A stretch of 64,000 nucleotides of DNA from an uncultured beta proteobacterium (GTDB lineage: Bacteria; Pseudomonadota; Gammaproteobacteria; Burkholderiales; Burkholderiaceae_B). Both the position numbers and the translations under genes were made by a program. Shown piece by piece: positions 24,734 through 27,975 of this stretch. The number at the start of each line of letters is the position of its first letter. Position 1 is the first letter of the stretch. The notes under the pieces were generated by a model, which was not told the DNA's origin, did not search any database, and saw only the letters and a list, made by a program, of their open reading frames with translations. Location of the stretch: contig CAIJKV010000220.1 of assembly GCA_903821335.1 (NCBI GenBank), forward strand, positions 1 to 64,000, written 5' to 3'.

Positions 24734-26704
24734 ATGACCGAATCGTCCAAACTGTCGCAGCAAGCGCTTGATCAACGACTTGGCTTTGCCGAGGATGACG
24801 ACCAGCCCATTCGCTACATGCAGCGCACACGCGACTGGTATCTTGGCTTGGGTTACGGTAAGCCTTATCGTTGGGCGCATTTTTCTGACGCGCCTTTTAC
24901 GTCGCTGCGCAAACCATTAAAAGACACTTGTGTCGCAATCGTGACCACTGCCGCACCCTATCAGCCCGACAAAGGCAATCAAGGGCCGGGATCACTTTAC
25001 AACTCGGCGGCAAAGTTTTTTACGGTCTATTCGGGTGATACAACCATAGACCATGATCTGCGGGTTTCACATGTTGCCATTGATCGCAAGCACACAAGCA
25101 TGCAAGACTGCAATACTTGGTTTGCGTTACCCATGCTTCGTGCGTTGGCGCGAGACAACGTCATCGGCAGCATCGCACCATTTTTTTATGGAGCGCCAAC
25201 CAATCGTAGTCAGCGCCACACCATCGAAGTCGATGCCCCAGAGGTATTGAAACGTTGCCGAGCCGATGGTGTCGAAGCAGTCGTGCTGATCCCGAATTGC
25301 CCAGTGTGTCATCAGACCCTGAGCCTGATCGCCCGTCACCTTGAGGCAGGCGGCATCCCGACTGTATTGATAGGCTGTGCGAAAGACATTGTCGAGCATT
25401 GTGGTGTACCAAGGTTTTTATTTAGCGACTTTCCCTTAGGTAACGCGGCAGGAAAACCGCATGACCTGGCCTCGCAACGCCAAACCTTAGAACTTGCGCT
25501 CAACGTCCTGGAGGCCGCACCGGGCGCACGCACCACAATGCAATCGCCCTTACGCTGGAGTGACTCGCACGAATGGAAACTCGATTATTCAAACATCGAT
25601 CGCGTCAGCCCGGAAGAGCTCATCAAGCTCAAGCAAGAGTTCGACCAAGGCAAAGAAGTCGCGCAGAGCGTTCGCGATCAACAGTTAACCTCGGCATTTA
25701 GAGATCTGACACACGACCATGAGGCAATCAAACAGATCCTGATTCGATTGAATCTTGCCCAAGGTACTGAAACGGTGACGGTCAAGCCACTGACGGGCGG
25801 CGTGTCTTCGAATATTTTTCACGTCACGACAAGCGGGGCGCAGTACTGCCTAAAACAGGCATTGCCTAAACTTAAAGTTGCCAAAGAATGGCTCGCCCCG
25901 GTTGACCGGGTGTTTGCTGAAATTGACTGGCTGCAGACCGCGACAAAAATTGTGCCCAAACATGTTCCGCACGTTTTAGGCGTTGATCGCGACAGCAAAA
26001 GTTTTGTCATGCAGTATCTGGGAACTGAATATCTAAACTGGAAGACAGAGCTTCTGGCAGGCCGAGTCACCCCCGGCGTTGCAGCGCAAGTCGGCCAGGT
26101 GCTTGGTCAGATCCATGCACAGACCGCACGACAGGCAGACATCGCACAACGTTTTGCCAACGATGCTACGTTCTATGCGATTCGGCTTGAGCCCTATTTG
26201 GCAGAAGCAGCTAGACAACACCCTGACCAGAGTGCTCATTTAAAGGCCCTGATCAAACGAACGCAAAGTCATCCAAAGGTATTAGTTCACGGTGACGTGA
26301 GCCCAAAGAATATTTTGCTTGGCCCCGCAGGCCCTGTTTTGCTAGATGCCGAATGTGCCTGGTATGGAGATCCGGCCTTTGATGTTGCCTTTTGCCTGAA
26401 TCATCTTTTCTTGAAAACCGCACACAACCCTCAAGCCGGTGTCACCTTGATGAACGACGCACAGGACTTGTTGACGGCCTACCTAAAACACGTCACATGG
26501 GAACCCGAGCACGAACTTGAGCACAGAATCGTGACCTTGTTACCCGGGCTGATGCTTGCGCGGGTTGACGGAAAATCGCCTGTTGAATACCTGAATAGTG
26601 ATCGCGGTGCGCGCGTGCGCAAGCTTGCCATCGAATTTCTAAACCAAACAAATATTTCTTTTTCAATGATCCACGCGCAATGGGGTCAGGAGTTCAAGCA
26701 ATGA
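24734..26704 (+). CDS. Fusion: N-terminal glycine/sarcosine/betaine reductase component B-like domain + C-terminal aminoglycoside phosphotransferase (APH/MtnK-like) kinase domain
   Basis: N-term VSHVAIDRKHTSMQDCNTWFALPMLRALARDNVIGSIAPFFYGAPTNRSQ...VLIPNCPVCHQTLSLIARHLEAGGIPTVLIG; C-term LTGGVSSNIFHV...YCLKQALPKLKV...VLVHGDVSPKNILLGPAGPVLLDAECAWYGDPAFDVAF (HxDxxxxN). Confidence 0.75.
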   Translation: MTESSKLSQQALDQRLGFAEDDDQPIRYMQRTRDWYLGLGYGKPYRWAHFSDAPFTSLRKPLKDTCVAIVTTAAPYQPDKGNQGPGSLYNSAAKFFTVYSGDTTIDHDLRVSHVAIDRKHTSMQDCNTWFALPMLRALARDNVIGSIAPFFYGAPTNRSQRHTIEVDAPEVLKRCRADGVEAVVLIPNCPVCHQTLSLIARHLEAGGIPTVLIGCAKDIVEHCGVPRFLFSDFPLGNAAGKPHDLASQRQTLELALNVLEAAPGARTTMQSPLRWSDSHEWKLDYSNIDRVSPEELIKLKQEFDQGKEVAQSVRDQQLTSAFRDLTHDHEAIKQILIRLNLAQGTETVTVKPLTGGVSSNIFHVTTSGAQYCLKQALPKLKVAKEWLAPVDRVFAEIDWLQTATKIVPKHVPHVLGVDRDSKSFVMQYLGTEYLNWKTELLAGRVTPGVAAQVGQVLGQIHAQTARQADIAQRFANDATFYAIRLEPYLAEAARQHPDQSAHLKALIKRTQSHPKVLVHGDVSPKNILLGPAGPVLLDAECAWYGDPAFDVAFCLNHLFLKTAHNPQAGVTLMNDAQDLLTAYLKHVTWEPEHELEHRIVTLLPGLMLARVDGKSPVEYLNSDRGARVRKLAIEFLNQTNISFSMIHAQWGQEFKQ

Positions 26705-27975
26705 GTCGTATCAAACACGTACACGCCCGACGCATCTGGGATTCTCGCGGACGCCCCACGGTCGAAGTCGATATCATCACCGAGTCAGGCGCCTTGGGTC
26801 GTGGCATTGCACCGGCCGGGGCGTCTCGCGGCACCCGCGAAGCGATTGAACTGCGCGACGGCGGAACACGCTTTGGCGGGCTCGATGTCCTGCACGCCGT
26901 CCAGGGGATTCAACAAGAAATTGCCCCCGCATTGGTTGGTCTGGAGGTCGCAGACCAAACCAAACTTGATGCGATCTTAATAGCGCTGGATGGTACTGCA
27001 GATAAATCACGACTAGGCGGCAACGCACTCATTGCCACCTCTTTAGCTGCATTGCATGCGGCTGCAGCGCAGGCGCAATTGCCGTTATGGCGCTATCTTT
27101 CTAACGACCGCCCGGTGCAACTTCCCTTGCCTCAGGTTCAGATTTTTGGTGGCGGCGCCCATGCAGATCGCCGCGTCGATGTACAAGATTTTATGGTGAT
27201 CGCCACGGGTGCTCGCAGTTTCGTAGAGGCCATGGAAATGACTGCAGAGGTATACCGACACGCCGGTCTGCTGATGAAAAAACGTGGCGCGTCACAAGGT
27301 ATCGCTGACGAAGGCGGTTGGTGGCCTGCGTTTGCGCACAACGAAGAGGCGTTAGATGTCTTGGTGATGTCCATCGAAGCTGCTGGCTTCGTACCAGGTC
27401 AAGATGTCAGCATCGCCTTGGACATTGCCGCCTCAGAGTTTGGTCAAAATGGGCGCTACACGCTAGGCCTCGAGAAAATGGAACTCGATACCGATGGCTT
27501 AATTGAAAAACTGTTGAGATGGATCGACAAATATCCGATCGTTTCAATTGAAGACCCGGTCGCAGAAGACGACGCTAAAGGGATGATCGCGTTTACGAAC
27601 GCTGTGAATGGACGCGTGCAGGTCGTGGGCGACGATTATCTGGTGACTAACGCAAAGTTGGTGCAAGAGGCTGCGAAACAAAAGGCCTGCAATGCAGTTC
27701 TAATTAAGCCGAACCAGGCTGGCACGATAACTGAAACACTCAGTGCCTTGACGGCTGCGCAAGAAGCAGGATATGCGACGATCGTTTCTGCACGTTCAGG
27801 TGAAACTGAAGATGTGGCGATTGTTCATCTCGCCACAGGCTGGAACGCCGGACAATTAAAGGTCGGTTCGTTTGCTCGCTCAGAGCGCATGGCCAAGTGG
27901 AATGAAGGGATCCGCGTTGAGACGACGGCGCCTCATCCACAAGGCTTTGCATGGCGGGCGTTACAGCGAATTTAA
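26701..27975 (+). CDS. Enolase superfamily protein, diverged phosphopyruvate hydratase paralog
   Basis: RIWDSRGRPTVEVDI...APAGASRGTREAIELRDGG...DEGGWWPAF...IVSIEDPVAEDD...VVGDDYLVTN...LIKPNQAGTITETL...SARSGETED. Overlaps the preceding stop (ATGA). Confidence 0.88.
   Translation: MSRIKHVHARRIWDSRGRPTVEVDIITESGALGRGIAPAGASRGTREAIELRDGGTRFGGLDVLHAVQGIQQEIAPALVGLEVADQTKLDAILIALDGTADKSRLGGNALIATSLAALHAAAAQAQLPLWRYLSNDRPVQLPLPQVQIFGGGAHADRRVDVQDFMVIATGARSFVEAMEMTAEVYRHAGLLMKKRGASQGIADEGGWWPAFAHNEEALDVLVMSIEAAGFVPGQDVSIALDIAASEFGQNGRYTLGLEKMELDTDGLIEKLLRWIDKYPIVSIEDPVAEDDAKGMIAFTNAVNGRVQVVGDDYLVTNAKLVQEAAKQKACNAVLIKPNQAGTITETLSALTAAQEAGYATIVSARSGETEDVAIVHLATGWNAGQLKVGSFARSERMAKWNEGIRVETTAPHPQGFAWRALQRI

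Follow-up and report, generated by a model that had tools for sequence, protein, structure and literature searches.

A kinase-paired enolase homologue with recurrent active-site substitutions represents an enolase subfamily of probable new specificity

Enolase (phosphopyruvate hydratase, Eno) is usually taken as a single-function enzyme, and annotation pipelines label all members of the family phosphopyruvate hydratase. In the yeast enzyme, His373 acts together with Glu168 and Glu211 to hold the catalytic water on the C3 side. In the Mycobacterium tuberculosis enzyme, Ser42 is associated with the second Mg2+, Arg364 with the phosphate, Lys335 serves as the base and Glu204 takes part in the elimination step, while Glu163 touches the substrate and E163A is reported as one of the non-functional mutants (PMC10619443). 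The residue numbers of the M. tuberculosis enzyme run close to those of the protein described here, in which Glu163 is replaced by Asp163. This protein is an enolase homologue encoded in a 64,000-nucleotide stretch of DNA (the window; contig CAIJKV010000220.1, positions 1 to 64,000) from an uncultured beta proteobacterium. It belongs to a family, named SARSGET after one of its motifs, that is an enolase-subgroup subfamily with a probable new specificity and likely part of an undescribed module.

The homologue is full length, with 424 amino acids (26701–27975, + strand; start codon ATG at 26701). Pfam Enolase_N and Enolase_C both match across its whole length and NCBIfam TIGR01060 matches with 481 bits, above the curated cut-off of 300, which explains its automatic annotation as phosphopyruvate hydratase. 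The AlphaFold model (mean pLDDT 88.6, pTM 0.89) has enolases as its top PDB matches, with TM scores of 0.92–0.97. Every active-site motif listed in the original prediction is present in this open reading frame (ORF): PAGASRG, VDVQDFM, DEGGWWP and SARSGETED as altered motifs, and ALDIAASEF, SIEDP, GDDYLVTN, LIKPNQ and GQLKVG as retained ones. In the protein's own numbering, the changed residues are D163 (yeast E168), A364 (yeast H373), A202 (yeast G209) and G150, the first two corresponding to Glu168 to Asp and His370 to Ala in the E. coli numbering used for the family below. The retained residues are S42, H154, Q162, E204, D241, E284, D311, K336, R365, S366 and K387, so that the metal ligands, the Lys base, the Glu acid and the phosphate-binding Arg and Ser are all kept. 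With full-length Enolase_N and Enolase_C domains, the D/E/D metal triad, the Lys base and the catalytic Glu, the protein is a member of the enolase subgroup. It lacks, however, the Glu168 and His373 (yeast numbering) that mark housekeeping enolases and that are present in 55 of 55 canonical sequences.

A pattern scan with [IV]VSARSGET over GTDB species genomes found at least 573 places with a SARSGET-type motif homologous to the window enolase. The same enolase type is found on plasmids that bear the partner kinase described below, in Rhizobium, Roseibium, Paracoccus, Rhodococcus, Sphingobium, Methylobacterium and haloarchaea. The family is large, ancient and common to bacteria and salt-loving archaea. 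In an alignment of 104 members (the window protein and 103 relatives) with 55 canonical enolases, S42, H159, Q167, D208, E209, D246, E290, D317, K342, R371, S372 and K393 are invariant in both sets. Four substitutions, N155G/S, E168D, G207A and H370A, recur in the family and occur in none of the canonical enolases; the window protein has all four, with an intact catalytic set. Asp168 is present in 103 of the 104 members and Ala207 in all of them. Ala370 is present in 104/104 by construction, since H370A was the criterion used to sort the family from the canonical set, and it was also found independently in all matches of a search that started from the kinase, in the plasmid homologues and in congeners identified solely through Pfam.

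Not all of the four altered motifs singled out by the original prediction are therefore equally telling. E168D and H370A are diagnostic and fixed in the family. The change from PSGAS to PAGAS is seen also in one canonical-type enolase (L017), T43R occurs in only 51 of the 104 members, and position 212 is aromatic in family and canonical enolases alike, so that none of these is diagnostic. N155G/S and G207A, which that prediction did not list, are also family-fixed, and A213W is confined to the larger of the family's classes (Trp213 in 94/104). The absence of the family-fixed substitutions from all 55 canonical sequences answers the objection, raised with the prediction itself, that such changes might be common in housekeeping enolases. 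In an unrooted maximum-likelihood tree, the canonical enolases all lie on one side of a branch with 100/99 support and the window protein lies outside them; it neither groups with the canonical enolases nor is the enolase of its genome. The Streptomyces members are nested inside a proteobacterial group, a placement that indicates horizontal transfer. A Haladaptatus plasmid (L176) encodes two enolase homologues, its kinase-paired copy and a separate one that lacks the SxRSGE motif.

The genome of the window has a canonical enolase (SHRSGETED) directly after kdsA on contig C132, in the setting in which the original prediction proposed to look for one, and the window homologue is 45% identical to it. 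All 22 isolate genomes examined contain at least one canonical enolase (E ≤ 1e-117) and one family member. The homologue is additional to the housekeeping enolase, not a replacement for it. Within the window's genus it is an accessory gene, present in 11 of 32 genomes, as would suit a redundant, decaying or moonlighting housekeeping enolase. That explanation is nevertheless extremely improbable. Between the window gene and its congeners, the nonsynonymous rate (dN) is 0.08–0.09 and the synonymous rate (dS) is saturated (>2), giving dN/dS well below 0.1 and therefore strong purifying selection within the genus; in addition, the catalytic residues are invariant, the operon is conserved and identical substitutions are fixed in bacteria and archaea. 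Decay or redundancy was rejected on conservation and dN/dS, chance or sequencing error because near-identical congeners exist, and a role in a defence system because PADLOC returned no match. The invariant catalytic set, the changes fixed across phyla, the purifying selection and the constant presence of a canonical enolase alongside all support, on comparative grounds, the earlier suggestion of a working enzyme with changed specificity.

The family is further distinguished by its gene neighbourhood. We compared 20 kb around the gene (10 kb on either side) in 20 genomes with the canonical enolase locus of the same genomes. An APH/methylthioribose-kinase-like gene is present at 18/20 family loci and 0/20 canonical loci, a D-2-hydroxyacid dehydrogenase at 11/20 and 0/20, and an FAH-fold enzyme likewise at 11/20 and 0/20. 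Kinase and enolase genes lie no more than 300 bases apart in 71 of the 94 loci that have both. Of 299 evenly sampled Pseudomonadota genomes searched from the kinase, seven, including the window's own genome, carry it, and all seven have a SARSGET-type enolase within 10 kb. In the window, the kinase gene lies immediately upstream and overlaps the enolase homologue, the stop codon of the former and the start codon of the latter sharing the sequence ATGA (26701–26704). A Shine-Dalgarno-like AGGAG, read from the sequence, lies inside the kinase reading frame (26688–26692, +), eight bases before the ATG, and with this overlap the two genes are very probably translationally coupled. A scan of the window for promoters and terminators gave nothing above shuffled controls.

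The contexts of the pair fall into five types. The window belongs to the first, two- or three-gene loci with kinase, enolase and sometimes the dehydrogenase. The second comprises catabolic clusters of Streptomyces, Variovorax, Rhizobium, Bradyrhizobium and Paraburkholderia, with a LacI regulator, a transporter, a cupin, an HpaD-like dioxygenase, a carboxymuconolactone decarboxylase-like protein, a zinc alcohol dehydrogenase, an FAH-fold enzyme and the D-2-hydroxyacid dehydrogenase. The third is an oxidative-sugar-type operon of Roseibium and Paracoccus, with LacI, kinase, enolase, an FAH-fold enzyme, short-chain dehydrogenases/reductases (SDRs) and a sugar ATP-binding cassette transporter; its FAH-fold enzyme is nearest to 2,4-didehydro-3-deoxy-L-rhamnonate hydrolase (342 bits; cut-off 500), one SDR in the Roseibium operon is xylose-dehydrogenase-like, and no sugar-acid dehydratase is annotated in the operons of either genus. 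The fourth, Enterobacter-type, combines kinase, enolase and dehydrogenase with a 2-keto-4-pentenoate-hydratase-like protein and an HpaI-like aldolase, and the fifth consists of sugar-acid clusters of haloarchaea.

Because the family is almost always found beside the kinase and carries one uniform set of active-site changes, it very probably acts on a substrate other than 2-phosphoglycerate. The contact made by Glu163 in the M. tuberculosis enzyme, and the loss of function in E163A, likewise make a plain 2-phosphoglycerate role unlikely for the window protein. Our preferred reading, for which we consider the case evenly balanced, is that the substrate of the kinase is a 2,3-dihydroxy acid bigger than glycerate, phosphorylated at its 2-hydroxyl, and that the enolase homologue then removes the 3-hydroxyl to give a substituted phosphoenolpyruvate (PEP). 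Where the dehydrogenase is present, it would first convert a 3-hydroxy-2-keto acid to the 2,3-dihydroxy acid; the kinase would then place a phosphate from ATP on the 2-hydroxyl; and the enolase homologue would strip the proton from C2 and the hydroxyl from C3 to leave a 3-substituted PEP, using the ordinary enolase set of two Mg2+, Lys336 as base and Glu204 as acid. The net result would be loss of the C3 hydroxyl en route to an intermediate at the level of a 2-keto acid. The sugar-type operons of Roseibium and Paracoccus, in which no sugar-acid dehydratase is annotated, and the reappearance of the dehydrogenase, kinase and enolase families in a divergent Enterobacter plasmid cluster speak for this reading. 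Here we infer where the kinase places the phosphate, that a dehydration follows, that the substrate is larger and that the dehydrogenase makes the 2-hydroxyl.

The family has altered precisely this C3 side toward smaller side chains and kept the phosphate side. The changes of Glu to Asp, His to Ala and Asn to Gly or Ser predict a larger pocket at C3, and such a pocket would imply a substrate with a C3 substituent that 2-phosphoglycerate lacks. An enlarged pocket could instead take a phosphate, if the kinase acts on the 3-hydroxyl and the enolase homologue then expels this phosphate, yielding a 2-keto-3-deoxy acid directly, a logic resembling that of hydroxylysine kinase and its phospho-lyase. 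The free 2-keto acid would be usable by the nearby FAH-fold and HpaI-like enzymes, and the acid Glu is Lys in a divergent Enterobacter homologue. We consider this scheme improbable, because the residues that bind a 2-phosphate (S42, R365 and S366) and the Glu that protonates the leaving hydroxyl are invariant.

Several points weigh against the preferred reading. No member of the family has a known activity, and the E-to-D and H-to-A changes, read from sequence, are compatible with a bigger substrate and not proof of one. Positions 43 and 212/213 differ among subclasses and vary with gene context, so that more than one substrate is likely within the family. Two-gene loci such as that of the window have no obvious user of a substituted PEP, and PEP itself would be the simplest product. 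PEP carboxylase shares an operon with the dehydrogenase and the kinase on two Rhizobium plasmids (L003:18963–21719 and L013:17709–20462).

The last two points lead to the main rival, a branch from glycerate to PEP, in which the dehydrogenase would serve as a hydroxypyruvate reductase, the kinase would turn D-glycerate into 2-phosphoglycerate (or L-glycerate into L-2-phosphoglycerate) and the enolase homologue would form PEP from this product. The order dehydrogenase, kinase, enolase matches a path from hydroxypyruvate to PEP, the NCBIfam models nearest to the neighbouring D-2-hydroxyacid dehydrogenase include GhrB and glyoxylate reductase, and lone kinase-enolase pairs would be complete with no further enzyme. 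We nevertheless regard this branch as unlikely. A canonical enolase is already present in every genome checked, and a conventional glycerate kinase (PF02595, 504 bits) is encoded in that of the window. Since Glu163Ala kills canonical enolase, a protein with Asp at this position and without the His is unlikely to be an efficient enolase for D-2-phosphoglycerate, and only the version with L-2-phosphoglycerate would explain a dedicated enzyme. The linkage to PEP carboxylase was dropped as proof of a PEP product, as it is seen only on the two Rhizobium plasmids.

The partner kinase of the window is part of a fusion protein of 656 amino acids (24734–26704, +), with a selenoprotein-B (GrdB/PrdB)-like N-terminal domain and the kinase as its C-terminal domain. 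The kinase domain (25709–26701, +) has an APH fold (Pfam APH, 4e-21; PDB 2pyw and 2olc) with the motifs HGDVSPKN and DAECAWYGDP, both conserved among its relatives. The closest characterised relatives are methylthioribose kinases, although the domain scores only 79 bits with TIGR01767 (cut-off 275) and so falls outside that family. The N-terminal domain (24734–25699, +) carries a Cys in the motif IPNCPVC; it scores 83 bits with NCBIfam PrdB and also matches GrdB-type families, in each case below the cut-off. The fusion is local, since in congeners (L020, L021, L129, L131 and L134) each half has an ORF of its own, and the two ORFs lie side by side upstream of the enolase gene. More distant relatives of the selenoprotein-B-like domain in the order mostly have no adjoining kinase, which makes it likely that the domain is an accessory of the kinase-enolase pair. 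Many Burkholderiales relatives (L197–L207) have one in-frame TGA in the region of the window Cys, which suggests real selenoproteins in aerobic or facultative bacteria. At L012:5222–7927, a selenoprotein-B-like gene adjoins a gene for a 901-amino-acid protein annotated as a class III aminotransferase; this protein has room for one more domain, for example a kinase, which would make the locus a possible counterpart of the kinase link in the window.

Elsewhere in the window, a PhnN-type ribose 1,5-bisphosphokinase fused to an AMP/thymidine phosphorylase-like domain is encoded at 17772–19547 (+), and an apparently truncated TctC-family receptor ORF of 133 amino acids, matching the first quarter of the family model, at 28527–28928 (−). 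The PhnN-type fusion lies 5 kb upstream of the pair and could hint at phosphonate metabolism, with the enolase fold repurposed for group transfer as in carboxyphosphonoenolpyruvate (CPEP) synthase, the precedent named in the original prediction. We think this very improbable: no phosphonate biosynthesis genes were recognised among the recurrent neighbours, PhnN does not recur beside the pair, the enolase homologue has a kinase as its obligate partner and its contexts are for the most part catabolic.

On Enterobacter plasmids, a very divergent enolase homologue (L008:8250–9521, −, and L018:6274–7545, −; 36% identity, annotated as hypothetical) has Lys in place of the catalytic Glu and Gly in place of His370. 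It is divergently oriented to an APH kinase gene, and the cluster also encodes a D-2-hydroxyacid dehydrogenase, an aminotransferase, two haem-oxygenase-like iron enzymes and a nucleotidyltransferase. This looks like a biosynthetic reuse of the dehydrogenase, kinase and enolase module.

Tentatively, and with somewhat more doubt than confidence, we propose a new deoxygenation module of three enzymes, widespread among bacteria and haloarchaea alike, in which a D-2-hydroxyacid dehydrogenase, an APH-fold 2-hydroxyacid kinase and a neofunctionalised enolase would act through substituted PEPs to take the C3 hydroxyl off 3-hydroxy-2-keto acids, in catabolic operons and in the divergent, biosynthetic-looking Enterobacter plasmid cluster. 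A clade found at hundreds of places, with four active-site changes and a specific kinase, points to systematic misannotation and probably to an undescribed metabolic step. The kinase and the enolase homologue form a directly testable enzyme pair, and the family is a natural experiment on the roles of Glu168 and His373 in a very well-studied enzyme. Should a substituted PEP prove to be the product, carbon metabolism would include more kinds of enol phosphate than are now known.

A search of the literature on the gene set, on enolase paralogues and on links to glycerate kinase found no description of the pair in the open-access papers that it covered. The closest described system is enolase itself, with which the family shares fold, length, both metal sites, the Lys base, the Glu acid, the phosphate-binding Arg and Ser and the loop-2 His. 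It differs in the fixed E168D, H370A, G207A and N155G/S, with A213W in the larger class, and in being always extra to a canonical copy and linked to an APH-fold kinase, which canonical loci are not. CPEP synthase (PhpH) of phosphinothricin biosynthesis, compared by description only, offers by analogy a precedent for an enolase-subgroup protein with an altered reaction, but it serves phosphonate biosynthesis, whereas the family is found in kinase-linked, mainly catabolic operons. Sugar-acid dehydratases of the mandelate racemase group within the enolase superfamily, such as rhamnonate dehydratase, which work in non-phosphorylative sugar pathways, would occupy the same place in a pathway, the dehydration of a 2,3-dihydroxy acid before the SDR and FAH-fold enzymes; these are kinase-free and of another subgroup, whereas the window protein is of the true enolase subgroup with its phosphate site kept. 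The partner kinase, finally, resembles methylthioribose kinase in its APH fold and its HGD and DxE catalytic motifs. In contrast to that enzyme, it scores far below the family cut-off, has its own motif (HGDVSPKN...DAECAW) and is paired with a SARSGET enolase in every carrier of the even phylum sample.

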